From: Parabacteroides distasonis
GTDB taxonomy: Bacteria > Bacteroidota > Bacteroidia > Bacteroidales > Tannerellaceae
Assembly (NCBI RefSeq): GCF_004793765.1
Contig: NZ_SRYM01000048.1
Location: forward strand, 1-33,293
Length of the DNA stretch: 33,293 bases
Direction of reading: 5' to 3'
The notes under the pieces were generated by a model. It worked only from the letters and a program-made list of their open reading frames with translations, did no database searches and had not been told where the DNA came from. Within the stretch, counting starts at the first letter, position 1. Each line of letters opens with the position of its first letter. This document shows positions 22,073 through 33,293 of this stretch, one piece after another. The position numbers were made by a program, and so were the translations under genes.

Positions 22073-22241
22073 GATATAGCTATTAAATTAATAATATAAT
22101 TTATCCGTTTTTGTGTTTTATATTCATAGTTAGATTATGAATATCCATTTAATTAACATGAATAGAAAGTGATTCTCGTGTCATTTATTTAGAAATATCC
22201 CTTTCTTTCTTATGAATTTCTAGCATTATACAAATTTCTTT

Positions 22242-22251
22242 GCAAAGTTAC
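22242..22251 (-). promoter_or_regulatory. GH92 operon -7 box overlapping a CTnDOT-like attachment core
   Basis: On the minus strand this reads GTAACTTTGC. It contains a TAACTTTG -7 box for the GH92 operon. It also fits the GTANNTTTGC core used by IntDOT-family conjugative transposons. Sequence to its right has an element-like organisation leading into an integrase gene, so it is proposed as the left junction of element A. Confidence 0.6.
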
Positions 22252-22570
22252 TACAAAAAAGTGAAATGCGGAAAGATATAGCGATAGAATTGAGTTACAG
22301 TGGTTTCAGTCGTGCTTCCGATTATTCGTGAAGCCATTGCAATCACCGCTGAAGCCAAATCAGGACGCCGCTACGTTACTTATCCGTAACCATGTCCGAA
22401 AGGGCGACAGACGGACACGGATGGCGAAACAAGGCGTTAAGGGTTAGTGAATTACTGACAACTCACGCAACAAATCCGGTTACGAAAAAAGATTGCGCCG
22501 TTCCTCCCCGTTTTGCGTACCGGCAACGGACTCTTCACCAACTAATTTTGAACCTAAAAAATTAAGGACG
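22252..22570. other. Left end of element A, 5' region of its integrase
   Basis: About 320 bp lie between the proposed attachment core and the integrase ATG. They hold a short open stretch ending REAIAITAEAKSGRRYVTYP (stop at 22387-22389), a TGTCCG/CGGACA hairpin (about 22393-22417), a 57-codon ORF and a -7 box TAATTTTG (22543-22550) for the integrase. The base composition is richer in G+C than the AT-rich stretch just left of it. Confidence 0.5.
22392..22565 (+). CDS. Possible 57-codon ORF upstream of integrase
   Basis: ATG at 22392 opens a 57-residue reading frame (MSERATDGHGWRNKALRVSE...) ending TAA at 22565, only 5 nt before the integrase ATG and 2 nt after the stop of the preceding open stretch. 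The tight packing is suggestive. However, the integrase -7 box lies inside it and I recognise no family, so it may be a chance frame. Confidence 0.25.
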   Translation: MSERATDGHGWRNKALRVSELLTTHATNPVTKKDCAVPPRFAYRQRTLHQLILNLKN

Positions 22571-22615
22571 ATGAAGAGTACATTTTCAGTAATCTACTAC
22601 CTCAAAAGAGCTTGA
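22571..22615 (+). pseudogene. 5' fragment of element A integrase
   Basis: ATG at 22571 begins MKSTFSVIYYLK, the usual start of IntDOT-like integrases. After 12 codons the frame enters element B and stops (R, A, stop). The matching remainder is at 32172-33192. Joining the two at the shared CTACCTCAAA restores MKSTFSVIYYLKRQVVKKDG without a frameshift. Confidence 0.85.
22597..22606 (+). repeat. Left direct repeat (attL core) of element B
   Basis: CTACCTCAAA here is repeated exactly at 32172-32181. The two copies bound the 9.6-kb element and lie at the same codons of the interrupted integrase gene (Tyr-Leu-Lys). Confidence 0.8.
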
Positions 22616-22892
22616 CACCAAATTATGTGCTGACGTTGAGTAATTTACATTAATGTTACGCTCTGTCGGGTTACGATTTGCCAACTTGCAGATTTCATCG
22701 GATTTCTCAGTCTTGCTTTTTTCAAATAACGCTTTAACTGTGCAAAAATACAAAATGTAATCAAAAAATTCTTTCAGTCAGCTAAACTTTGACTGTATTT
22801 AACTGTTTCGAATTCCCTATTATTTGTTTCTCACTATTTGCTGGATGGATTTTGTTATCCAATAATTAACTGTTTTTTTATAATTGGATATA
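22607..22892. other. Left noncoding end of element B
   Basis: About 290 AT-rich bases have no convincing gene. GGGTTACGATTTG lies at 22668-22680. A leftward box TATTTTTG (22743-22750) would transcribe out of the element. A CAGTCA/TGACTG hairpin lies at about 22777-22796, and a TATCCAAT/ATTGGATA stem past the stop of the neighbouring gene may act as its terminator. Confidence 0.5.
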
Positions 22893-23288
22893 TCATTCAA
22901 TTGGCACGATGATTCTTTTATCAGGTTCTTGAGACCATTGCACTTGGTATGTTTTTCCATTAATTTGGTCAAGCATGATGAAATTATAATTATTGGTTGT
23001 TGGATATAAAATAAAGCGTCCATTGACTTCTTCGTCTTTCCATACAACTGAATATAAAGATAGTGCTGTTTCAAAACGTTTGTCATCTTCAAACGACCAT
23101 TGCACTTGCCAAATACGACCATTCCTTGTATCAAGTTTCAGAAATGTCCACATATTAGTTGTCGGATATAGTTTATATCTTGCAACTTCATCAACACTTC
23201 TAACAACTGTTGCAGAGTCTGTAACAGTTTGTGCGTATAATGTGTAAAACATCATCAAGAAAGCACTTATGATAAATAGTCTTTTCAT
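22893..23288 (-). CDS. Secreted protein with two 40-residue repeats
   Basis: This 131-residue protein has a signal peptide (MKRLFIISAFLMMFYTLYAQ). Two internal repeats follow: YKLYPTTNMWTFLKLDTRNG...QVQWSFEDDKR and FILYPTTNNYNFIMLDQING...QVQWSQEPDKR. The shared pattern is LYPTTN-x3-F-x2-LD-x2-NG-x3-QVQWS-x-E-x-DKR, suggesting two small beta-sheet units. I know similar proteins only as uncharacterised Bacteroidales proteins. I start at the second ATG because the first (23312) overlaps the upstream gene and precedes the signal peptide. It is the last gene of the regulator-HNH operon, 10 bp after the HNH gene. Confidence 0.75.
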   Translation of the reverse strand: MKRLFIISAFLMMFYTLYAQTVTDSATVVRSVDEVARYKLYPTTNMWTFLKLDTRNGRIWQVQWSFEDDKRFETALSLYSVVWKDEEVNGRFILYPTTNNYNFIMLDQINGKTYQVQWSQEPDKRIIVPIE

Positions 23289-23298
23289 ATCATGTCTA

Positions 23299-24354
23299 TT
23301 AACAATAATCATCTATTCCGTCTTCACCTTCCCATTTAAGTCCCTGAGCCAAAGTAAGAGCCTTTTGCGCACCTTGTTCCTCAAAGAACGTTGTTCCTTC
23401 ATGCACGTATTTCCCGTCCTCAAATGTTATAGTAATCATTGAGAACTTCTTTATTCCATCATCTGCATGTGTGATTATCACAAGGCGATTATCATTACAT
23501 GATGCAAAATCATCTATAAAATGTGTGGCATATTGATTTTTAGTTATGACAGCACCTTTTTTCAAGTTGTTCAGATAAGTGGTCAGTGGCCTATCTCCAA
23601 CTTCAGAAGGACAGAGTGGGAATTCTGTTGGTGTACGCCAATATCTTTGCATGGCATTAGGTGTTAATGATTCGGTCAGGCTATCTGTGTGCGAATCAAT
23701 ACTAATCATATTGCCAATTTGTTCCGAAGTTACATTTATATTATGTTGTTCTCTCTCAAAAGGAGATTTCTTCTCTTCCCTTCCATAAGGAGTATAAATC
23801 CATTCTCCAATAGCTCCGCCTAAAGATTTCTCATTATTTTTTGTTTCTGCCCAGGCGCACAATCTTTCGTAAGAGGCTTTTGCTTCTTCCGGTGTTACGG
23901 TTCTCATCCATTCATAATTTGGATTGTCATCGACAAACTCCTGTATTATTGAAGGGTCATTCACAAAAGCCTCAATGCTCCCACAAAGATATTCTATTTT
24001 CTTTCTTGTTATCGGATTGTTCAACGCATTTTCTAACTTTGTCAGCCATCTGAGGTTTTGAGGTCTGTTGTTCCTGCGGTTGGTATCAATGTGATCAACG
24101 ATGTGCTGAGGTGTGGGAGGTTCGCCAAGAAAAGCGAAAGCCACAATTCGATGTACCCGTTCTGTCCCAATTTCCATATATCCAGTATTCTCATTTGGCT
24201 TTCCGAAAGTCCACGTATTATCATCTTTCCTTATACGCTTTCCTTCTCGTGCATGGCGTAATACAGCTCCGTTATCACGAACGGAATAATGTTCTCCTTT
24301 ATAAGAACATTCTTTTATTTCCGTATAATCATTCAGAATAGAATGTATATTCAT
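23299..24354 (-). CDS. HNH endonuclease-domain protein
   Basis: This 351-residue protein has an N-terminal HNH module of the phage/homing type: VHRIVAFAFLG, then HIVDHIDTNRRNNRPQNLRWLT (about 67-106). The His-Asn-rich core would bind one metal ion and nick DNA. The rest (about 120-351) matches no domain I know; it includes an acidic/polar middle and a C-terminal DDGIKKFSMITITFEDGKYVHEG stretch. It sits 3 bp after an XRE-like regulator and 10 bp before the secreted repeat protein, in the cargo zone of element B. A role in defence, element competition or DNA processing is possible, but nothing here proves one. Confidence 0.75.
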   Translation of the reverse strand: MNIHSILNDYTEIKECSYKGEHYSVRDNGAVLRHAREGKRIRKDDNTWTFGKPNENTGYMEIGTERVHRIVAFAFLGEPPTPQHIVDHIDTNRRNNRPQNLRWLTKLENALNNPITRKKIEYLCGSIEAFVNDPSIIQEFVDDNPNYEWMRTVTPEEAKASYERLCAWAETKNNEKSLGGAIGEWIYTPYGREEKKSPFEREQHNINVTSEQIGNMISIDSHTDSLTESLTPNAMQRYWRTPTEFPLCPSEVGDRPLTTYLNNLKKGAVITKNQYATHFIDDFASCNDNRLVIITHADDGIKKFSMITITFEDGKYVHEGTTFFEEQGAQKALTLAQGLKWEGEDGIDDYC

Positions 24355-24357
24355 TGT

Positions 24358-24978
24358 TTATTTCCTCCCAAATCTTGTATAAGTTTCAAATGCAAAAGCT
24401 AAAAATTTGTACCATTCATCGGCTGTTTTATAATCCAATTTTACATTTACACATACTGACCTATAAACAACATTAGTGCATACTTCTACCATACAGCCAT
24501 CATCGCTAAAGGCAGGAGCTATCGGAAGTGCAGCGCAATTACCTATACGCTCTTTTAGGGTTTCACCTATAGTGAAAGTAATAAAATAGTCAGACAATCC
24601 AAAATCAGGTGTAGGGCAATCCTCATATCCAGGTTCATCTAATTTACTGAAAACTATAGCTGAAGACTTTCCTAATTTGCGCAGTATATCTGGTACGACA
24701 TTTAAGAACTGCGATACAGCTTTTTGCTTCATTACCTCTTCTTCAGATTCTTTGCTGTCGTTTATCAGTTCCACATCCTCGGCAAGTTCCTTAAAGAAAT
24801 TGCGGTTCAGTACTTTTGAAATTTGCTTCAACTGAGCAATATCCATTTTGCTGCGTTTAAAAATGTCATAAACATTATTTCTTTGGCAGCAAATCATCTT
24901 AGCAAATTCAGTAATCGGAATTTGTTGTTTGCGAACTTCATTTTCTATGAGTTCTCCTATAGTTCTTTTGTTTGTCAT
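24358..24978 (-). CDS. XRE-like helix-turn-helix regulator with unknown C-terminal domain
   Basis: This 206-residue protein has an N-terminal Cro/CI-type HTH (about 1-65): ITEFAKMICCQRNNVYDIFKRSKMDIAQLKQISKVLN. A Glu/Lys linker and a C-terminal domain of about 110 residues with several Cys follow; the latter could sense a signal. It is the first gene of a three-gene leftward operon and may autoregulate it. An upstream in-frame ATG (25005) lies inside the promoter's -7 box at 25003-25010, so 24978 is the better start. Confidence 0.8.
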   Translation of the reverse strand: MTNKRTIGELIENEVRKQQIPITEFAKMICCQRNNVYDIFKRSKMDIAQLKQISKVLNRNFFKELAEDVELINDSKESEEEVMKQKAVSQFLNVVPDILRKLGKSSAIVFSKLDEPGYEDCPTPDFGLSDYFITFTIGETLKERIGNCAALPIAPAFSDDGCMVEVCTNVVYRSVCVNVKLDYKTADEWYKFLAFAFETYTRFGRK

Positions 24979-25002
24979 ATTAACAGTTTTGATTTTACAA
25001 TG

Positions 25003-25010
25003 CAAAGTTA
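25003..25010 (-). promoter_or_regulatory. -7 box of regulator-HNH operon
   Basis: TAACTTTG on the minus strand lies 25 nt upstream of ATG 24978. It decides the start codon, because a start at 25005 would fall within the promoter. Confidence 0.6.
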
Positions 25011-25064
25011 TATGACATCCGACAAAACATCGTAAAACGTGTGTATCATCTTATTGTACAACTT

Positions 25065-25724
25065 TTATTCTTCCAATACTTCGTCATCATCGAAATTTTC
25101 GCCCTCAATCTGAACATCTTCGCCAAGCATCTGCTTATAAACAATTTGCACGGTCTTATATTCGTCATCATCCATGTCGTATGATGCTACAATCTTGTTC
25201 ATGTCCTTGTCAAACAGATACTTCATTTCCCCGAAAACGATTTGCCCAGCATTGTTGTTGGCACGAAAACGATGTCGAGCTTTAAAACCTATAAACAACT
25301 GTTCTTTATCCAGCATGGTTTTCAGTTCGTCTGCAAGTTTCTTTGCTTTTTTCTCCGCATTTTTTTTATTCTGTGCGTTCTCGTCATATTCATCTTTTGC
25401 TTCTTGATATTCATTCTTGCTATAAGCAGATTGGTATGGTCCGCTCCAAATAGACATTGAAGATTTTGCACTCTTCATCTTTCTGTCATATTCATCAATA
25501 GACATCCCTATTTTGCATAATTGTATTGTTTTTTCATAAAATACAGGATCATCAAAAGGAGTAAATGCGCTATCAACCTGAGTTTCCGCCGGGTCGTACG
25601 TTTCAGGATGATACAATGTTTTCTTTATATCCTCTTCTATCAATGTGTTCGCCTTATCTTCCAGCGATTTGCTGCATGATGCAAACAATGTAACGAGCAA
25701 AGCTCCTAATAATATTCTTCTCAT
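25065..25724 (-). CDS. Lipoprotein of unknown function with coiled coil
   Basis: This 219-residue protein has a lipoprotein signal, lipobox FASC. A charged helical stretch (about 100-140, rich in Lys, Glu and Ala, e.g. NAQNKKNAEKKAKKLADELK) looks like a coiled coil. It is followed by a compact domain and an acidic tail ending EGENFDDDEVLEE. I recognise no family. It lies between the relaxase and the regulator operon in element B, behind a structured leader (25745-25922). A surface or entry-exclusion role would be a guess. Confidence 0.7.
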   Translation of the reverse strand: MRRILLGALLVTLFASCSKSLEDKANTLIEEDIKKTLYHPETYDPAETQVDSAFTPFDDPVFYEKTIQLCKIGMSIDEYDRKMKSAKSSMSIWSGPYQSAYSKNEYQEAKDEYDENAQNKKNAEKKAKKLADELKTMLDKEQLFIGFKARHRFRANNNAGQIVFGEMKYLFDKDMNKIVASYDMDDDEYKTVQIVYKQMLGEDVQIEGENFDDDEVLEE

Positions 25725-25744
25725 ATTCTTTGTTTTTTAGTTAC

Positions 25745-25922
25745 AAAAAAGCGCAGACATACGCCATACGCTTCACGGTTCACCACAAACCATCATCAAA
25801 TATGGGATGCCTGCGCCCGTATGGGTGCAGTCCCAATATTGATGATTTGCTCTTTTACTTGCGGTGGTGATTGTGAAGCTATTGAGCAATATGTCTTGGA
25901 AAGAGTCACCTCAATCCAAGTG
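25745..25922 (-). ncRNA. Structured leader or small RNA upstream of the lipoprotein
   Basis: About 180 nt lie between a -7 box (25923-25930) and the lipoprotein gene. A 10-bp stem (25807-25816 with 25751-25760, one G-U) is followed by six U, as in a terminator. Alternative pairings overlap it: CCAUACG (25824-25818) with CGUAUGG (25770-25764), and AUCAUCAA with UUGAUGAU. The layout fits an attenuated leader or a stand-alone small RNA. I know no Rfam family for it. Confidence 0.5.
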
Positions 25923-25930
25923 CAAAAGTA
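25923..25930 (-). promoter_or_regulatory. -7 box of leader RNA/lipoprotein
   Basis: TACTTTTG on the minus strand matches TAnnTTTG. It directly follows the relaxase terminator. Confidence 0.5.
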
Positions 25931-25966
25931 CAAAAAATCCGTGATATGGCATTCAACTATCACGGA
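25930..25966 (-). terminator. Rho-independent terminator of relaxase gene
   Basis: A perfect 9-bp stem TCCGTGATA/TATCACGGA (25958-25966 with 25938-25946 on the minus strand) is followed by six T. It begins about 11 nt past the relaxase stop. Confidence 0.85.
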
Positions 25967-25977
25967 CTTTATTTGAT

Positions 25978-27282
25978 TTACAACTGAATACCCCTGTTTT
26001 GTTTCCTTGTCGGCAATCCCAACGCTTCCATAAACTCATCTTTCCTGCGTCTGAACCAACTTACATGCGAAACTCCGTCTATCTTGAAATCGAAATTACC
26101 TTCCGTATTCTGTTTGAGAGAGCAAACCGCACCGTCAGCCTTAAAGTGCTGCCTGAACTCGGGAGAATAAAGGTCGCCTTTAATTGAAACGTCCTTGAAT
26201 GCACACAGTTTCCTGATAAGCCCATCGCCAAAATTCAGAGTGTCACGCAAGAACTTTATTGTCGGCATCAGCTTTTCAACATACGGGAAATAGCGTTTGA
26301 CGAAATTCACGAACTCTGACAGCTTGCGATGCCGCTGTTCATATGCATCCGTTATCTCCTGTATGCGCTTTGCCTGTTGCTGTTCCCTTTGTCGGGCTTC
26401 TTCTTCAAGCTCAAATATACGCTCATGCAGATTCCTGTTCCCCCTCTCCAATGTCCTGACTTTATTGCTGCCGAAAAGAGAGCCGACACTCTCGGCGATG
26501 TTGGCAGCTGCGGTTGTTGCCGCACCTTTCAGCTTTTCAGTCTGTATCTCCCTTTTCGCCCGTCTGAGTTCCTCCTGTGCCGTTTCCCTGCGGTCTTGAA
26601 GTTGCTCTATATCTGTCTGTAACTGCTCTGTCTGTTGCACCAAATCACGATAATACTGCCGTGTGGAAATGTGCTTTGCTTCAGAACCGTCTATGCCACG
26701 TTGCAATCCGTATCTGCTCATGGCTTGGGCGTATGTGTCCTGATAGGATTTGAGTTTGGTACGTGTCATTATATCATCGGCACACAATCGGACTGTGTCT
26801 GTCGGTTTCTTGCGGTATCGCATCTTCACCTGTTCCTCCTTCTTCTTGCGTTTGCGTTCTCCTCTGACAATGGGAACAAGTGTAGCATGTATGTGCGGTG
26901 TCTGCTCGTCCATGTGCAGGACTGCCGACACGATATTCTCCTTGCCGAATGTGTCAGCGAGGTATTTCAGATTGTCGCTGCACCATTCATCAAGCCTCCC
27001 ATCATTGGTGATACGTTCCATATCCTCGTGGGTTCCCGTAAGCAGGATACGGATTGCCCTCACTTGATTGTTGCCGATTTTGCGTGTCAGTCCTGCGGTG
27101 TCCAACCGGTGCTGTATAGCCTGTGTCCTGTTTTCAATACCGTCAGGAAAACTTATCAATTCCCGATTGAGATGCGTCCTGCCTGCATCCGCATTCTTCG
27201 GTCGGATGGTGCGCTCTATGTGCGCTGACATGGCGGCATCCGTTCCGCTTGTTTTCTCCATGTGTAATACTGCGTAGCCCAT
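25978..27282 (-). CDS. MobV-family relaxase (Mob/Pre)
   Basis: This 434-residue relaxase would nick the element's oriT and lead the strand into a recipient. The N-terminus GYAVLHMEK...HIERTIRP is typical of Mob/Pre proteins. The metal-binding motif LHMDEQTPHIHATLVPI (about 120-136) is the MobV hallmark. A long coiled coil (about 210-340, Gln/Glu/Arg-rich) follows, then a C-terminal domain ending in a basic tail. I start at ATG 27282; the ten extra upstream residues in frame do not look native. With no type IV secretion genes in the window, it must rely on a helper conjugative system. A hairpin-rich oriT candidate lies just upstream. Confidence 0.92.
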   Translation of the reverse strand: MGYAVLHMEKTSGTDAAMSAHIERTIRPKNADAGRTHLNRELISFPDGIENRTQAIQHRLDTAGLTRKIGNNQVRAIRILLTGTHEDMERITNDGRLDEWCSDNLKYLADTFGKENIVSAVLHMDEQTPHIHATLVPIVRGERKRKKKEEQVKMRYRKKPTDTVRLCADDIMTRTKLKSYQDTYAQAMSRYGLQRGIDGSEAKHISTRQYYRDLVQQTEQLQTDIEQLQDRRETAQEELRRAKREIQTEKLKGAATTAAANIAESVGSLFGSNKVRTLERGNRNLHERIFELEEEARQREQQQAKRIQEITDAYEQRHRKLSEFVNFVKRYFPYVEKLMPTIKFLRDTLNFGDGLIRKLCAFKDVSIKGDLYSPEFRQHFKADGAVCSLKQNTEGNFDFKIDGVSHVSWFRRRKDEFMEALGLPTRKQNRGIQL

Positions 27283-27332
27283 ATATGACTTCTTTTTTAG
27301 TTTGTGAAACAATGATTGATGATTGCTTTTGT

Positions 27333-27440
27333 ACGGCTTCTGCCGTTGGTCGGGAGAGTCCAGAGAGGTGCAACCTCTTTGGCTTATTGGGGAATTTTCA
27401 GCGTTGCTTGCAATGCGGTTCGGAAAATTCCCTAATAAGC
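27333..27440. other. Candidate oriT: nested hairpins upstream of relaxase
   Basis: The non-coding gap before the relaxase holds an 18-bp inverted repeat with one mismatch (27382-27399 with 27423-27440). Its inner loop can itself fold (GCGTTGC/GCAATGC). Two smaller hairpins lie to the left: ACGGC-TTCT-GCCGT (27333-27346) and AGAGGT-GCA-ACCTCT (27364-27378). MobV relaxases act on hairpins next to their own gene, so oriT is the best reading. The nick site cannot be placed. Confidence 0.65.
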
Positions 27441-27490
27441 TATGGTATTTTCCGCCGGTAAATATCCGTGTGGCTGCTGAGTCCCTCTCC

Positions 27491-27601
27491 CTACATTTTC
27501 AGCCCTCGCTTCTTCGGTGGCTGCATTATCCGCCTTGCGGATTGGACTTGCGGCTCCTGCTTCATCGGCTCTGCCGATTGGGACAAAGGCTTACCGCACA
27601 G
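27491..27601 (-). pseudogene. In-frame relic of the primase C-terminus
   Basis: After the primase TAA (27602-27604) the same frame stays open for 36 codons, starting LCGKPLSQSAEPMKQEPQVQ and ending GLKM followed by TAG at 27491-27493. It is a Pro/Lys-rich tail. One base change (TAA to TAC or TAT, Tyr) would rejoin it to the primase. Confidence 0.6.
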
Positions 27602-28456
27602 TTAATCGTTCAAATCCTTGTAGCCCCTGTAATTGTCGGAGAAGTCACGGAGGCGTCCGGAAAACTCTTTTCTCAGTTCCTGATATGCCCTTATCCCTGC
27701 CTCGTCATTGTCGAGCAGGCAGTGGATGCGCTCATATCCGTGCAGCGTATCTATGGCTTTGGAAACATTGGAAACCGAATTGAGGACAACGTAATCCTGC
27801 CTGTCAAGGTCAGGCATGGTCGGGCAGTTCTTCATCCGTAACGTGAGAAATGAAAGATAGTCCGTCATGCCCTCGAACACGAGGCATTTTTCTCGCCGCT
27901 CTCCCCGCTGCCGGATATGGCTGATGTCCTTCGGTGCTATGCAGCCTTTGAAGAATCGGTTGCGCACCTCGTAGCCTCCTGCCACATTAGGGAAGCCGAT
28001 AGCGAAATAAGGCTTGCCGTTGTTGATAAAATGCAGTTCCTTGCACTCCGGCTTTGCAAGAGCTGTGTTTATCCCACGTTCCTGCAAGTAGCGCAGTAAT
28101 GCCGGATGCGAAAGTTCCCGTACCTCCAAATGTTGGAAACTCGGCTCGTATGGTTGCCGGCGAAAAGAGAAAGATACAGGTCGGATGTGCGGTGCCTGTT
28201 CCGCAATCCTGTCGAGCAAATAGGGAACATAATCCGAGCCATATAGTTCCTGTGCCAAAGTGATGATGTTGCCGCCTCTACCCAGCCCGTAATCGAACCA
28301 CAGGTTACGGTCGGTGTTCACCTTGAACGATGCTTCCGTTTCCCGGCGGAACGGGGATTTATACCACAGGCTGCCGCTTTGCTGTTTCACGGGCGAGTAG
28401 CCCAGACTTTGCAGGTAGTCTGCAATCTTGATTTGTTTTGCATCTTGGATGTTCAT
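27602..28456 (-). CDS. TOPRIM-domain DNA primase (C-terminally truncated)
   Basis: This 284-residue plasmid/element-type primase has an N-terminal DnaG-like region (about 1-70: KIADYLQSLGY...LWYKSPFRRETEASFKV...WFDYGLGRGGNIITLA) without the usual zinc Cys residues. A C-terminal TOPRIM domain carries CLVFEGMTDYLSFLTL (catalytic Glu, about 191) and HCLLDNDEAG (DxD-type acidic residues, about 243-249). It would prime lagging-strand or conversion synthesis of the excised or transferred element together with the helicase two genes upstream. It ends early at KDLND, and an in-frame tail of 36 codons continues beyond the stop. The catalytic domain is complete, so it may still work. Confidence 0.88.
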   Translation of the reverse strand: MNIQDAKQIKIADYLQSLGYSPVKQQSGSLWYKSPFRRETEASFKVNTDRNLWFDYGLGRGGNIITLAQELYGSDYVPYLLDRIAEQAPHIRPVSFSFRRQPYEPSFQHLEVRELSHPALLRYLQERGINTALAKPECKELHFINNGKPYFAIGFPNVAGGYEVRNRFFKGCIAPKDISHIRQRGERREKCLVFEGMTDYLSFLTLRMKNCPTMPDLDRQDYVVLNSVSNVSKAIDTLHGYERIHCLLDNDEAGIRAYQELRKEFSGRLRDFSDNYRGYKDLND

Positions 28457-28459
28457 ATT

Positions 28460-28708
28460 TCAGTCTTTTAATTGGTTTAGTATTATAGTGGGGTTGATGA
28501 TGGTTGGAAAAACGTTGATTTGATGAATGGATAGTTTAATATCCTTATATACAGTATTATACTTCCTCAACGGCTTCTCAACAAACCACTCGCCAAAAGA
28601 GAAATCAACAGTCGGACGGTGTGTTATCCTCAACTCCTCTTTTGGAGTGTTGAGATTTTGTTGAGAGTGTATATCACTTGTTATCAGCATAGTTATATTC
28701 CTATTCAT
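28460..28708 (-). CDS. Small hypothetical protein between helicase and primase
   Basis: This 82-residue frame starts at ATG 28708. It fills the gap between helicase and primase tightly: 24 bp after the helicase stop and 3 bp before the primase start. No signal peptide or known motif is visible; a central RPTVDFSFGEWFVEKPLRKY is the most structured-looking part. The spacing supports a real, cotranscribed gene. A and T content is higher than in its neighbours, so it is not certain. Confidence 0.5.
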   Translation of the reverse strand: MNRNITMLITSDIHSQQNLNTPKEELRITHRPTVDFSFGEWFVEKPLRKYNTVYKDIKLSIHQINVFPTIINPTIILNQLKD

Positions 28709-28732
28709 CAATTCAACAAAAAAATAATAGAA

Positions 28733-29974
28733 TTACAGAGATTCAAGCTGTTCCCTTGTGATGGTGTAATAGCGTCCCACCCTCCTTATCGGCTCATACC
28801 GACATTCCCGATTGTAGTTCAACTGGTAGGTGGTATATGTCAGACCGTTGGGCGCAGGCGTCAGTTTCCAGCACTCCTGCAATACCTTTCTCACTTGGTG
28901 CTTTTCCGCTTTGACCTGCGTGTTTACCAACAGCACAAGAATATCATTCGGGCAGAAGGAAAATGTGTCTGTGCCGACACTTTCCATGATGTCAAGGATA
29001 AGTTCGTGTATCTCTATCTCCAACCGATTGCGGTTGCTGCGGATAATCTTACGCAAGGCTTCGGTATGCAGAAGCGATGGAGCAAACCACATACGGCTCT
29101 CTTTTTCGGTGGATAGGTTTCTGCGTTGCAGGAAATGGAGAAAGGCGGGTATCTCCGCTTTCAGCTTTTGCAGGAAGTCGGTATCATCGGACTGCAGGCG
29201 GTCTATCTTACGCACCCAATAACGTGTTTCCCCTGCGTCGATGATGACTGGCAGATACTCATTGTTGGAACACAACACGAATTTGGCAAAGAAAGCTATC
29301 TCGTCACGGTCTTTGCCTTTGGCTTCCATCTTGTAGGAGAGCGTGGTGCTGAGATTCTTCAACCGCTCGCTGTCTTCCCTGCGGTTGAGCAGCACCTCGT
29401 CCACGAGGATAAGCAGCTTGCCTGCCCAGTCTGAATTGAACTGGCTGCGGAAATCCTCGTTGGTGTTGAATGTGACATTGTTTTGAAACAGGGCTTTCAG
29501 AAAGTTAAGGAACGTGCTTTTGCCGGTGTTGCGCTCCTCCGATACCAACAGCAGGATGGGCAACTTCTGGACGGGATGCAGATAGAGCAGCTGCAAGTAG
29601 TCCATGCCCAATTCGTACTGTTCCCCGAAGATGTGCCGTACCAAAGATTGGATATGCGTGAAATCGCCCTCTTCCGGTCTGTGGTCTATCGGCTCATAGA
29701 GGTTCAGGAACTTGCCGATTACAGGCTGATACCTGGCGTGTTCGGGTACGGTGCAGAAGCCGTCATACTTCGGCACCGTAGCGAGATAGTCCCTGCCATA
29801 GTCCTGCCGCAGCGTCTCGTTGTTCCATACGATACGCTTCTTCACATAGCCTCCGTTCAGTCGGGGCTGGTTCACTAACTTGTAGAGGGTCGTACCCACA
29901 CGGATAAACTCCTCCTTTGCCATGACGCTGTCCGATGGCGGTCGCTGGCTGTCTTTTTCTTCTTTGGCTGTCAT
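28733..29974 (-). CDS. SF3-type replicative helicase (DUF5906/VirE-like ATPase)
   Basis: This 413-residue AAA+ ATPase resembles phage and plasmid superfamily 3 helicases. It has a P-loop SEERNTGKST (about 144-153), Walker B LLILVDEVLL (about 184-193), and a sensor region FVLCSNNEYLPV followed by an Arg-rich ETRYWVRKID. The C-terminal part (about 310-413) looks like a winged-helix DNA-binding domain. Together with the downstream primase it forms a replication module for the circular form. It heads the helicase-small ORF-primase transcript, driven from a box at 30009-30016. Confidence 0.88.
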   Translation of the reverse strand: MTAKEEKDSQRPPSDSVMAKEEFIRVGTTLYKLVNQPRLNGGYVKKRIVWNNETLRQDYGRDYLATVPKYDGFCTVPEHARYQPVIGKFLNLYEPIDHRPEEGDFTHIQSLVRHIFGEQYELGMDYLQLLYLHPVQKLPILLLVSEERNTGKSTFLNFLKALFQNNVTFNTNEDFRSQFNSDWAGKLLILVDEVLLNRREDSERLKNLSTTLSYKMEAKGKDRDEIAFFAKFVLCSNNEYLPVIIDAGETRYWVRKIDRLQSDDTDFLQKLKAEIPAFLHFLQRRNLSTEKESRMWFAPSLLHTEALRKIIRSNRNRLEIEIHELILDIMESVGTDTFSFCPNDILVLLVNTQVKAEKHQVRKVLQECWKLTPAPNGLTYTTYQLNYNRECRYEPIRRVGRYYTITREQLESL

Positions 29975-30008
29975 ATTATTCGATTTTAGTTTGATAAAAT
30001 GTCAGCCA

Positions 30009-30016
30009 CAAAAGTA
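30009..30016 (-). promoter_or_regulatory. -7 box of helicase-primase transcript
   Basis: TACTTTTG on the minus strand lies 34 nt upstream of the helicase ATG and matches TAnnTTTG. Confidence 0.5.
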
Positions 30017-30120
30017 TAATCAATTATCGTACAGCCTGTTAAGCAAAACGCAGCAGAACGCAGAAAAAAGCGAATCGAGACAGGAAAATCAATGGTTCGT
30101 GGTTGAAAACAGATGTAAAA

Positions 30121-30167
30121 ACAAAAAATCCCGAAGAAGCAGGTCTGAAACAGTTGATTCTTCGGGA
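30121..30167 (-). terminator. Rho-independent terminator of integrase transcript
   Basis: A perfect 10-bp stem TCCCGAAGAA/TTCTTCGGGA (30158-30167 with 30129-30138 on the minus strand) is followed by a T-rich tract. It separates the integrase module from the replication module. Confidence 0.85.
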
Positions 30168-30172
30168 CTGAA

Positions 30173-30235
30173 TATAAATACATTAATACGAATGAATGGC
30201 AACACACCTATGTGGTTATCCGTATAAATACATTA
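30173..30235. repeat. Pair of 13-bp direct repeats between integrase and replication modules
   Basis: TATAAATACATTA occurs at 30173-30185 and 30223-30235, starts 50 bp apart. A CTATGTG/CACATAG inverted pair lies nearby. This fits a regulator or replication-initiator binding site, but two copies are weak evidence. Confidence 0.5.
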
Positions 30236-30291
30236 TTGACAATGGGAATACACATAGATTTAACTACTTCATGTCGCCATCTTAATAGGCT

Positions 30292-30684
30292 TTACGCCTG
30301 ATAATTAAATGAATCCATATTGTTGGATACCAGCGAAAAGAAGATGCTTGTTTTCTCTTTTCGCAAGTACAGCCTTTCAAATATGGCTTTGCGCACCTGT
30401 TCCGCACCTAAGCTGTTGATACGGAAAGCGAGTGCCGCTATCATTGGAAAGCCGAACACATCGGCATAACAACCGTTTTCCAAGCAAACATATTTCTGCA
30501 CCTCGTATTCTTTCAGGACACCGCTTTTATACACGGCTCTGACAGCGGCACGGAGTGTCGGGGCGATTACCCCGAACAGCTCCACCAATTCCGGTTCAGA
30601 CATCCAAACATTTTCATTCGGTATATCAGGCAGTATTACCTTACCATATTCTGTTGTGGTTATGATAACTCTTTCCATACTCAT
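30292..30684 (-). CDS. Small DNA-binding-like protein downstream of integrase
   Basis: This protein of about 130 residues contains MSEPELVELFGVIAPTLRAAVRAVYKSGVLKEYEVQKY, resembling a winged helix or HTH and the N-terminal part of RhuM-like proteins. It starts 10 bp after the integrase stop and is followed by a terminator, so it is cotranscribed with the integrase. A role in excision or recombination directionality is plausible from context only. An in-frame TTG at 30702 is a less likely start than ATG 30684 (or 30678). Confidence 0.7.
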   Translation of the reverse strand: MSMERVIITTTEYGKVILPDIPNENVWMSEPELVELFGVIAPTLRAAVRAVYKSGVLKEYEVQKYVCLENGCYADVFGFPMIAALAFRINSLGAEQVRKAIFERLYLRKEKTSIFFSLVSNNMDSFNYQA

Positions 30685-30694
30685 GCTTTCAAGT

Positions 30695-31906
30695 TCATAC
30701 AAGTTTCATCTTGTCGCTAATTTTGCTTTCCAGCATGGAAAAATCCTTGTCCAGCTTTTCCGTGGTTATCTTGGCGTAATGCTGTGTGGTGGTAATCTTC
30801 GTATGCCCCAGCACCTTGCTCACGCTCTCTATCGGCATACCGTTCGAAATAGCCATCACCGCATACGAGTGGCGGCTCATGTGGAAGGTCAGATGCTTGT
30901 TTATCCCACATTCCGCTGCAATCTGTTTCAGCAGAACATTCGTCCAGCCGTTCCGATAGAAATTGAACAGGCGTTTTCCTCTGCGGAACGGTTCGTAACG
31001 GTCTATGATTTTACATGCACTCTCCATCAGCTTCACACGGAAGGGGATATTCGTCTTTTGCCGTACCGATGAAATCCACAGGCTGCCGTTTATAGTGACA
31101 AGGTTGTCGGTAGTGAGGTTCTTGATGTCGATGAACGATATTCCCGTCAGGCATCCGAAGATGAAAACATCCCTGACAACCGTCATTGCAGGGTCATCGA
31201 AACGGTGCGACATGAGCGTCTGCACTTCTTTCTCCGTTAGAAATTCTCGCTCCTTTGTGCCGCCGCTGACATAACAGTTGGCAAACGGGTCTCTCGGTAT
31301 CAGACCATTCTTGTGTGCATGGGTCACGATAGACCTCAGCGGAGCACAATACAGTCTGATTGTGGATTGTTGCACACCCACTTCATTGCGGAGATAGATG
31401 CAGTACTGGTTCAGAAAATCCTCTGTGAGTTCGTTCATGCCGATGTCGTTCCGCTTGTAGTAATACTTGATGAAGTTAGCCACATGGGTGCGGGATATGG
31501 TATGCTTGTATAAGGTTTCCTTTGTCCTGTCCTTGCCCACACGTCTGGCGAAGTCTGCATTATGCTTGTCGAAGGCACGGAGCAGCGTTTCATACTCCGT
31601 ACCGATGCCCTGATAAGCATTGCGTACCATTTCCGCCGTCACGAAAGCCTCACGGTCGGAAATGCGTTGGTAGTGCTTGATGATTTGCGCCTTGATGTTG
31701 TCAAGGGCAAAGTTGATGTCCCGAGCCTCCTTGCTTTTTCCTTTCACCTTGTTGGCTTTGGTGTCCCATAACTCCACCGCTACGGAATACTTGCAGCTGA
31801 ACTGCGCCTGCGTCCCGTTGATTGTCACCCGTCCCATGATGGGAACAATACCGTTTTTCTCCTTGCTCCTGTTCACGAAGAACAGCACTTTGAATGTCGC
31901 TCTCAT
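30695..31906 (-). CDS. IntDOT-like tyrosine integrase of element B
   Basis: This 403-residue integrase has an N-terminal arm-binding region (MRATFKVLFFVNRSKEKNGIVPIMGRVTING), a SAM-like core-binding domain (about 105-200) and a catalytic domain. LTGISFIDIKNL has Ser where most recombinases have the first catalytic Arg, as in IntDOT. It then has FHMSRHSYA (His and Arg of HxxR), VLGHTKITTTQHYAKI with the second His, and Tyr as nucleophile. I start at ATG 31906 because a -7 box (31927-31934) lies just upstream of it and inside the longer frame. It should integrate element B at CTACCTCAAA-type sites and, with partners, excise it. Confidence 0.92.
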   Translation of the reverse strand: MRATFKVLFFVNRSKEKNGIVPIMGRVTINGTQAQFSCKYSVAVELWDTKANKVKGKSKEARDINFALDNIKAQIIKHYQRISDREAFVTAEMVRNAYQGIGTEYETLLRAFDKHNADFARRVGKDRTKETLYKHTISRTHVANFIKYYYKRNDIGMNELTEDFLNQYCIYLRNEVGVQQSTIRLYCAPLRSIVTHAHKNGLIPRDPFANCYVSGGTKEREFLTEKEVQTLMSHRFDDPAMTVVRDVFIFGCLTGISFIDIKNLTTDNLVTINGSLWISSVRQKTNIPFRVKLMESACKIIDRYEPFRRGKRLFNFYRNGWTNVLLKQIAAECGINKHLTFHMSRHSYAVMAISNGMPIESVSKVLGHTKITTTQHYAKITTEKLDKDFSMLESKISDKMKLV

Positions 31907-31926
31907 ACTGTCTGCTTTTTTGGTTG

Positions 31927-31934
31927 CAAAATTA
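31927..31934 (-). promoter_or_regulatory. -7 box of element B integrase
   Basis: TAATTTTG on the minus strand lies 20 nt upstream of ATG 31906 and matches TAnnTTTG. It supports that start. Confidence 0.6.
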
Positions 31935-32020
31935 GTTTCACATGCGCCAAATGGCTGAAAGCAAACCTCTGCAGAACAGCGCAAAATCAGTATTGGGTTG
32001 TTAAAAATGCAGGTTTGTCG

Positions 32021-32033
32021 GGGTTACGATTTG
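32021..32033 (+). repeat. Element-end motif GGGTTACGATTTG, right copy
   Basis: This exact 13-mer also occurs at 22668-22680 in the same orientation, with similar flanks (TTTGTCG here, TCTGTCG there). A variant, GGGTAACGATTTA, occurs at 33248-33260. It may be an integrase arm-type binding site. Confidence 0.7.
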
Positions 32034-32060
32034 GAAACCTAACTATTTCTACAATCCGCG

Positions 32061-32068
32061 TAATTTTG
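32061..32068 (+). promoter_or_regulatory. Outward -7 box at right end of element B
   Basis: TAATTTTG on the plus strand matches TAnnTTTG and points out of element B into the interrupted integrase. The flanking 31985-32171 region is otherwise noncoding. Confidence 0.4.
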
Positions 32069-32171
32069 CTTTTTTGCCTATTCTGCAAAGCTATGAGAAA
32101 TACCGCATAAATCACTATCTGTTAAATAATTGTCCTCCGTTGGCTTCGTGTGGCTTCTATCGAGGATTTTT

Positions 32172-32181
32172 CTACCTCAAA
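32172..32181 (+). repeat. Right direct repeat (attR core) of element B
   Basis: CTACCTCAAA is identical to 22597-22606 and lies at the same codon phase of the interrupted integrase. Confidence 0.8.
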
Positions 32182-33192
32182 CGTCAGGTAGTGAAAAAGG
32201 ACGGGACAGTGCCCGTCATGGGACGCATCACGGTGGACGGCAGCCAGACGCAGTTCAGTTGCAAACTGACCGTCGATCCCAAGCAGTGGGACACCAAAGG
32301 GGGACGTGTCACGGGCAGAAGCGCGGCGGCACTCGAAACGAACCGCATGCTCGACAGGATGCGTGTGCGCATCAACGGACATTATCAGGAAATCATGGAG
32401 CGTGACAACTTCGTCACAGCGGAAAAGGTCAAGAACGCCTTTCTCGGACTTGAACACCGTTATCACACGTTGATGCAGGTATTTCGCCAGCACAACGAAG
32501 ACTACGAGAAACAGGTGGAGGCAGGCATGAAAGCCAAAGGCACGCTCTTGAAATACAAGACCGTTTACAAGCACCTGCAAGAGTTCCTCACCATCCGCTA
32601 CCGCGTGAAGGACATCGCCCTGAAAGAGCTTACGCCCGCTTTCATCTCCGACTTCGAGATGTTCCTGCGCACGGACAAGCACTGCTGCACCAATACCGTG
32701 TGGCTGTATGTCTGCCCGCTCCGGACGATGGTGTTCATCGCCATCAACAACGAGTGGCTCACGCGCGACCCGTTCAGGGAGTATGAAATCAAGAAGGAAG
32801 AAACGACCCGCAGCTTCCTGACGAAAGAGGAAATCCGGCTGCTGATGGAGGGCAGGCTGAAGAACGCCAAGCAGGAGCTATACCGTGATTTATACCTGTT
32901 CTGCGCATTCACGGGCCTGTCGTTCGCCGACATGCGCAACCTGACGGAAGAGAATATCCGCACCTATTTCGACGAACATGAGTGGATAAACATCAACCGC
33001 CAGAAAACAGGTGTCGTTTCCAATATCCGGCTGCTTGACATAGCCAAGCGCATCATCGACAAATACCGGGGTCTGTGCGGGGACGGGAGGATATTCCCCG
33101 TGCCGCACTACATGACCTGCCTGTACGGAATCCGTGCCGTCGCCAAGCGTTGTGGCATCACCAAGCATATCACGTGGCATATCGGAAGACAT
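32172..33192 (+). pseudogene. Body of element A integrase, broken at both ends
   Basis: From YLKRQVVKKDGTVPVMGRIT onward this is an IntDOT-like integrase: arm-binding domain, core-binding domain, and a catalytic domain with CAFTGLSFADM (Ser at the first Arg position) and ITWHIGRH (HxxR). The first 9 codons are at 22571, beyond element B. After RH at 33192 the protein diverges to an unrelated tail and stop (33246). The GH...Y segment with the nucleophile, roughly 50 residues, is therefore missing. The gene has lost its own promoter and start, so it is inactive unless both interruptions excise. It is richer in G+C than element B. Confidence 0.85.
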
Positions 33193-33293
33193 TACGAATT
33201 GTCTTTATCGCTGAATTTGAATAGTTTGCAAAGATTTGTTTCTTGATGGGTAACGATTTAGAAACAAGCGAAGTTCTGTATTTTACCTCGTTT
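33193..33293. other. Possible end of a third mobile element (C)
   Basis: Sequence after the RH codons is not integrase. GGGTAACGATTTAGAAAC (33248-33265) closely matches the right end of element B (GGGTTACGATTTGGAAAC). It lies 56 bp past the break; the left copy in element B lies 62 bp past its junction. The window stops before this can be confirmed. Confidence 0.45.

Follow-up and report, generated by a model that had tools for sequence, protein, structure and literature searches.

Two site-specific elements probably nested at conserved codons of the integrase gene of an integrative and conjugative element in Parabacteroides distasonis

The 33,293-bp stretch of Parabacteroides distasonis DNA analysed here (hereafter, the window) is the whole of one contig, NZ_SRYM01000048.1 (C120), of a draft genome of 177 contigs and 4.2 Mb (RefSeq assembly GCF_004793765.1; G000); contigs of this genome are labelled C, genomes G and loci L. 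Its right part carries, on the forward strand, the left end of an integrative and conjugative element (ICE; 22242-22570) followed by the integrase gene of that element, of which codons 1 to 12 (22571-22606) and the main piece, which extends into the catalytic HxxR box and ends on its His codon (32173-33180), are separated by 9,565 bp assigned to an integrative mobilizable element (IME), element B (22607-32171). B is bordered by two forward-strand copies of the core CTACCTCAAA (22597-22606 and 32172-32181). Past the His codon come six variable bases (33181-33186, forward strand) and the left end of a second element, element C, which is cut by the contig end (33187-33293, forward strand). We read this arrangement as two site-specific elements nested in an ICE integrase gene, B at its YLKR codons and C at its catalytic HxxRH box, and put the probability of this reading at roughly 0.88.

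The open reading frame (ORF) starting at 22571 reads MKSTFSVIYYLKRA*, such that the left piece of the integrase gene encodes 14 residues and then a stop. No further copy of the core lies in the window (mean expected by chance, 0.02; two copies in 0 of 100 shuffles), and the codon phase of the integrase relative to it is unchanged across B, the codon TAC lying at 22598 and again at 32173. The right piece, which matches PF13102 and PF17293, is 96% identical over 336 amino acids (aa) to the intact 411-aa integrase of L106. A preliminary description of the window had proposed that the integrase is split after codon 12 and resumes in the same frame with the core at both breaks, a proposal confirmed by the ORF, the core search and the homology to L106. 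When searched for at E<=1e-50, the host integrase was present in 12 of 123 genomes of the bacterial family, the source genome included, yielding 15 matches besides the window's own. All 14 matches that were fetched were continuous at the B site, so the unbroken gene with the predicted junction exists. Homology with these relatives starts at about 22235-22243, the ICE left end being 86-96% identical at the nucleotide (nt) level in L106-L111, L114 and L117 and the chromosome further left differing. A relative of the host ICE in G043 carries genes for a PF03432 relaxase, a PF02534 coupling protein and a PF19044 TraG ATPase together with DUF4138 and topoisomerase genes. Given this relaxase, coupling protein and set of channel genes, the host ICE would be conjugative by content, hallmarks found in the G043 relative only, as the window's ICE extends past the contig; it might act as the helper of B, as the preliminary description had supposed.

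The B site was also found occupied in other records. In Phocaeicola faecicola (L002), a related B whose integrase is 95% identical (aa) to that of the window's B, IntB, occupies the identical position in an ICE located elsewhere in the chromosome. The L002 flanks are 100% identical to the empty sites of L108, L110 and L117 (1,000 nt of the gene and 339 nt upstream), whereas the L002 gene piece is just 90% identical to that of the window, and the two B insertions thus look independent. L002 has CTACCTCAAA as its left core and CTACCTCAAG, the empty-site sequence, as its right core, so the element supplied the final base of the left core. One ICE integrase, identical over ~1 kb, is shared by L108 (G046), L109 (G034), L110 (G033), L117 (G043) and L002, which suggests a recent spread; three of these five genomes have an empty site, one (L109) is cut by element C and one (L002) by element B. 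The host integrase of P. faecicola changes sequence after QIYA, near its 3′ end and not far from where the contig stops (L002, 1-150), possibly a third kind of interruption. The window's B itself recurs, at 99.5% identity over 7,161 bp, in an IMG/VR contig (L147), where it sits at the YFKR codons of a different integrase (40% aa identity) that runs on to a full C-terminus. In L006 (Dysgonomonas) and L151, elements whose integrases are 62-63% identical to IntB occupy the same codons of two further integrases. The target integrase of L006 ends early, after ~115 codons; among the relatives of the host integrase, L114 and L115 also end early, the latter at transposase-like sequence as judged by eye.

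Thus, four different integrase genes have been struck by B or by relatives of IntB (62-95% identity) at YLKR/YFKR codons, and the reusable integrase site anticipated in the preliminary description was right in kind. It is a preference only. A flank test of 36 loci, which included integrases only 41-43% identical to IntB and omitted L007, L145, L149 and L150 (L149 and L150 show the right end of L148), found an integrase N-terminus at five flanks, namely those of the window, L002, L147, L006 and L151. Within the B lineage proper (>=83% identity), three of seven distinct sites are in integrase genes; the other four (L003, L004, L005 and L148) lie elsewhere, with cores that include TTGCCTSAAT (L005) and TGTCCTCAAA (L148), and the finding of copies in unrelated sites, named in that description as the outcome that would speak against integrase targeting, was therefore partly obtained. 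A single B-like element, outside an integrase, occurs in the metagenome contigs L148, L149 and L150, which share its right end; L150 ends at the junction. Searching at E<=1e-160 in 393 genomes from the order added only two more relatives, and two records of a plasmid collection matched IntB at 58%. We rejected CTACCTCAAA as the sole determinant of B insertion, since its exact sequence has 25 copies in the source genome (12 for the reversed-pattern control), only five of which fall, by coordinates, in integrase genes (two in the window and one each in C89, C140 and C175). Judging from the sites compared, the B core seems short and loose, and often provided by the conserved YLKR codons.

The strongest case is that of element C, whose end lies at the right border of the interval treated in the preliminary description and was not recognised there. 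The piece starting at 32173 had been taken for the rest of the gene; instead, at 33178-33192, it runs into other sequence at the catalytic HxxRH codons, the codon CAT (33178-33180) being followed by ATCGGA and then by AGACATTACGAATTGTC... to the contig end. The host gene is thus cut twice in the window, and the contig lacks its last ~62 codons; what C takes away is the C-terminal part of the integrase, including the catalytic tyrosine. The last 106 bp of the window (33188-33293) match seven other places in the source genome, among them C159, C6 and C104 at 100%, C97 at 81%, C126 at 75% and C44 at 94% over 32 bp, and six of the seven, all except C124, directly follow an integrase cut at the same box. 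With C110, found through its integrase piece, eight integrase genes of this genome are cut at the catalytic box, and as these are only 21-59% identical (aa) where comparable, one codon box has been struck in many genes. The pattern CAY N6 AG[AC]CAY was present in all 11 junctions aligned (eight from this genome, three from other genomes), a chosen set from which C124, lacking an integrase, was excluded. The genome has 54 Phage_integrase matches, of which six break off at profile positions 134-137 and three, at C right ends, start at position 124-125; two others starting at 119-120 (C141 and C124) are not C right ends. A natural gene end, or an attachment site of the host ICE itself, was rejected as the cause of the 3′ break, 11 of the 14 fetched relatives running past the box to a normal C-terminus; of the other three, L109 is split by a C end, and L114 and L115 stop before the box. 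The placement at conserved codons also brought an intron to mind, which is not supported, given two integrases and variable junction bases, no search with intron models having been made.

At the other end of the element, the integrase C-terminal halves (C-halves) of C89, C96 and C175 follow a common right end (e.g. CAGCCTATCACTTTCCAC), ~300 bp from two tandem integrase genes, int1 and int2, both of the IntCTnDOT type (PF17293, PF13102, PF00589). Relatives of int1 were collected from 18 of the 123 family genomes, 14 of the 393 order genomes (partly the same) and 64 IMG/VR loci; six records of the plasmid collection also matched. Out of 99 int1-type loci, 15 were dropped for having less than 430 bp of flank beyond the gene and 84 were tested, L266 (35% identical to int1) being kept. 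A C-half lay beyond int1 in 74 of the 84, compared to none of 33 control flanks and none of 84 shuffled flanks (cut-off, 10 bits; best control, 2.8; best shuffle of single bases, 3.8). The motif model was built from nine C-termini, several of them from loci later tested, and the case scores therefore lean on it; an earlier test with fixed peptide queries gave 18 of 22 vs 0 of 36. The 74 C-halves form 63 groups at 90% nt identity and 31 at 70% aa identity. Their His codon at the junction is CAY in 62 and TAY in nine, and the six variable bases are followed by (C/A)G N CA(C/T), in which the G is found in 72, the C in 72 and the A in 73 of 74. That the C-half might be a fixed part of C was rejected, as copies with 99-100% identical int1 (L120, L204 and L205) have C-halves of different 90% nt groups. 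The C-halves of L139 and L205 are 96-99% identical (aa) to the host integrase, and others resemble C's own integrases (int1-like at 82% in L135 and 92% in L266; int2-like at 71% in L221), indicating that relatives of these were struck too. With C ending at HxxRH in so many integrases, the DNA encoding the active site is an attachment site of a widespread Bacteroidales element family, and the comparisons above show strong specificity of the C family for the integrase catalytic box.

Both ends of C around one gene were seen in G034, a two-contig genome in which a host-type integrase like that of the window is split by a C of ~22.3 kb into an N-half (2681148-2680129; 95% aa identity) and a C-half (near 2657862-2657674; 96% to the host C-terminus). 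Candidate pairs of halves were found at a second place in G034, 16 kb apart, and in G040, 20 kb apart. In each pair the six junction bases differ between left and right, as coupling sequences do, which we take to liken C to the coupling-sequence recombination of CTnDOT- and Tn916-type elements. The 22-kb element of G034 has a MobC-like gene, an RND efflux set and, by eye, regulator-like genes. The cargo of the C copies at G034:C2:2657600-2681300 and L050 (460-9784) includes genes for RND-type transport together with a sensor kinase/regulator pair. The G034 genome also bears on whether the double break could be an assembly artefact of a draft contig ending in a repeat. Although the window's contig does end 106 bp into sequence common to four contigs, we regard this as very improbable: L002 and L147, two independent records, have the B junctions as well, and in G034 the C junction is seen again in the same integrase with both halves present.

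Several observations weigh against our reading of two nested site-specific elements. Four of the seven B-lineage sites are not in integrases. C124 (16654-16696 of that contig in G000) resembles the C left end, at 86% over 43 bp, with no integrase preceding it, and ten of the 84 C right ends (L123, L130, L134, L137, which is an int1 fragment, L193, L248, L249, L262, L263 and L265) have no recognisable C-half. The second pair of G034 (G034a) and the G040 pair are only candidates for halves of a single gene, and in G034c and G043 six queries found no N-half up to 60 kb away. The window's copy of C has its other end beyond the contig; neither excision nor a circular form nor integration was seen. 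Some of these findings would also fit an integrase gene that is a neutral, degenerate landing place, the elements reading a short DNA word in ICE genes that are numerous and dispensable and drawing no benefit from disarming them. We give this reading close to, if slightly under, an even chance. It agrees with B striking other genes too, and with C needing chiefly CAY N6 (C/A)G N CAY, near-matches to which were noted by eye outside clear integrases in L123, L130 and L193. Yet a bias of 74 in 84 towards one codon box, in 63 distinct C-halves, far exceeds what dispensability alone would account for, even if a benefit to the element is not thereby shown. What the comparisons do show is that insertion is precise, with empty and occupied sites, and that both codon blocks have been used again in unrelated integrases.

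Site-specific elements usually leave their target gene functional or use tRNA genes. It had been proposed that B disables the integrase and that precise excision would restore it. The first claim is unproven and the second fails in the window: removal of B alone would not repair the gene, owing to the second cut at the catalytic box. At its right end, B offers an in-frame TTG (32140-32142, forward strand) as a possible restart of the host integrase; all seven of seven B-lineage right ends have a TTG, GTG or ATG that precedes the core codon by exactly 10 codons, and a TTG precedes it by 4-5 codons in L006 and by 5 codons in L151. An open, in-frame NTG (ATG, GTG or TTG) is thus present 4-10 codons before FYLKR/FYFKR in all five integrase insertions, and B may swap the gene start rather than silence the gene. 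With this replacement start codon, loss of the host integrase through B alone is uncertain. B might, then, not inactivate its target at all, its right end providing an integrase of slightly changed N-terminus with another start codon and possibly with a promoter, a possibility that we would sooner bet against than on. The listing of 5′-end targets in PMC5704250, with IMEs that enter ebfC or tatD at the 5′ end, goes in the same direction as the recurrent NTG. Against it, in L003 and L004, at non-integrase sites, the frame stops right at the junction; the stretch is short and the related copies are non-independent, the window's B and that of L147 being almost the same sequence; and the window's gene is broken further downstream regardless.

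The gene content of B agrees with the assignment, made in the preliminary description, of a mobilizable element inside the integrase gene of another mobile element. On the reverse strand, B encodes an HNH endonuclease-domain protein (23299-24354; PF13392, 58.8 bits), a MobV family relaxase (25978-27312; NF041497, 219.7 bits; PF01076), a primase-like Toprim protein (27602-28456; PF13155, PF01807), a helicase-like DUF5906 protein (28733-29974; PF19263, 82.8 bits), a small protein without family match whose role in directionality is only guessed (30292-30702) and, beside it, the 403-aa tyrosine integrase IntB (30695-31906), which is of the IntCTnDOT type with arm-binding, core-binding and catalytic domains (PF17293; PF13102; PF00589, 61.1 bits). 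Four B proteins had no family match, and no conjugation-channel family was found among the nine B proteins scanned with profiles. B accordingly has its own integrase, a relaxase without mating-pore genes and a precise integration at a site known in its empty state, as expected of an IME, for which excision and mobilization by a helper would also be predicted. Repeats on the forward strand near its left end (GGGTTACGATTTGCCAAC..., 22668-22689) and right end (CGGGGTTACGATTTGGAAACC, 32016-32037) resemble each other and repeats in relatives, and may be arm sites. To the left of the ICE, positions 1 to ~22,100 hold peptidases, GH92-like enzymes and a CusA-type metal efflux set (CusA and TolC matches in a profile search), which we take to be ordinary chromosome. 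A short tyrosine recombinase of 310 aa (398-1330) bears no relation to the nested elements.

In the sequence of events we propose, B would have recombined at a core that is short and of loose specification and that coincides with the YLKR codons at the gene start, and C, with its two tandem tyrosine integrases, at the HxxRH codons, leaving about six coupling bases, each element's own integrase presumably doing the cutting. The host ICE would then be mobile only if another integrase acted in trans. On a wider view, towards which we lean slightly, a Bacteroidales-wide, two-integrase family would use integrase active-site codons as a general attachment site, severing the catalytic C-termini from the integrases of rival ICEs and IMEs and of its own relatives, which would leave those elements fixed in the chromosome; B-type elements would make use of the gene start, in a layered hyperparasitism whose landing pad is the best conserved part of the mobility enzyme. 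Parasitism or control between elements, as the preliminary description suggested, is plausible although unproven; its observation stands and its interpretation is partly supported. The integrases that move gut-bacterial elements would, on this account, also serve as landing pads for other elements, codon conservation giving a family that reads active-site codons a target in very many mobile elements, which it could follow into new hosts. Many 'degraded' integrases of gut genomes are predicted to be cut rather than decayed, ICE inventories to miscount live elements, and one element may control the mobility of another; it becomes testable whether a nested element locks its host in place or frees it.

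In the literature searched, in which most subscription papers were not covered, no element family was found described as inserting at the active-site codons of integrases. Other kinds of nesting are described in PMC6907783 and PMC10214605, and the IntCTnDOT group with its catalytic RKHRH residues in PMC8138268. NBU1, Tn4555 and other Bacteroides mobilizable transposons resemble B in combining a tyrosine integrase with IntCTnDOT-type domains and a relaxase, but use tRNA genes or other chromosomal sites and are listed with MobP relaxases, whereas that of B is MobV (PMC5704250). MTnPi1-3 of Prevotella intermedia share with C their Bacteroidales hosts, relaxase/mobilization genes and two tandem tyrosine integrases (the latter seen for C in C96 and G034b); compared by description, their 11-bp core, TTAC/TTGC N5 AA, differs from that of C, CAY N6 (C/A)G N CAY (PMC4755523, PMC5704250). 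The strand-biased circularizing elements of Gammaproteobacteria, again compared by description, have variable junction bases differing left and right and two integrases, as C does, but within an IntA-Tfp-IntB-Srap set (PMC10214605). An ICE without an intact integrase has precedents in an actinomycete ICE of Streptomyces with a transposon in its integrase gene (PMC9513070) and in an excision-deficient CTnERL whose integrase gene carries an insertion and which still gave Hfr-type transfer (cited in PMC5729914); the accessible accounts describe no recurrent or codon-specific targeting in either. Site-specific insertion into a conserved site of another mobile element is found, as here, in IMEs fixed in the origin of transfer (oriT) or the traG, SNF2 or Maff2 genes of ICEs and in Tn1806-like ICEs within ICESa2603 (PMC5704250, PMC12942858), although these are Firmicute elements whose targets are transfer or methylase genes rather than integrases. 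A Bacteroidales conjugative element inside an integrase gene, finally, has been described in P. intermedia OMA14, where a copy of CTnPi2-a lies within the integrase gene II_0226 of a degraded mobilizable transposon (PMC4755523). While that is a single case, with another copy in a tRNA gene and no codon-level or family-wide targeting stated in the accessible text, it is like the present one in that the gene entered by the element is itself an integrase.

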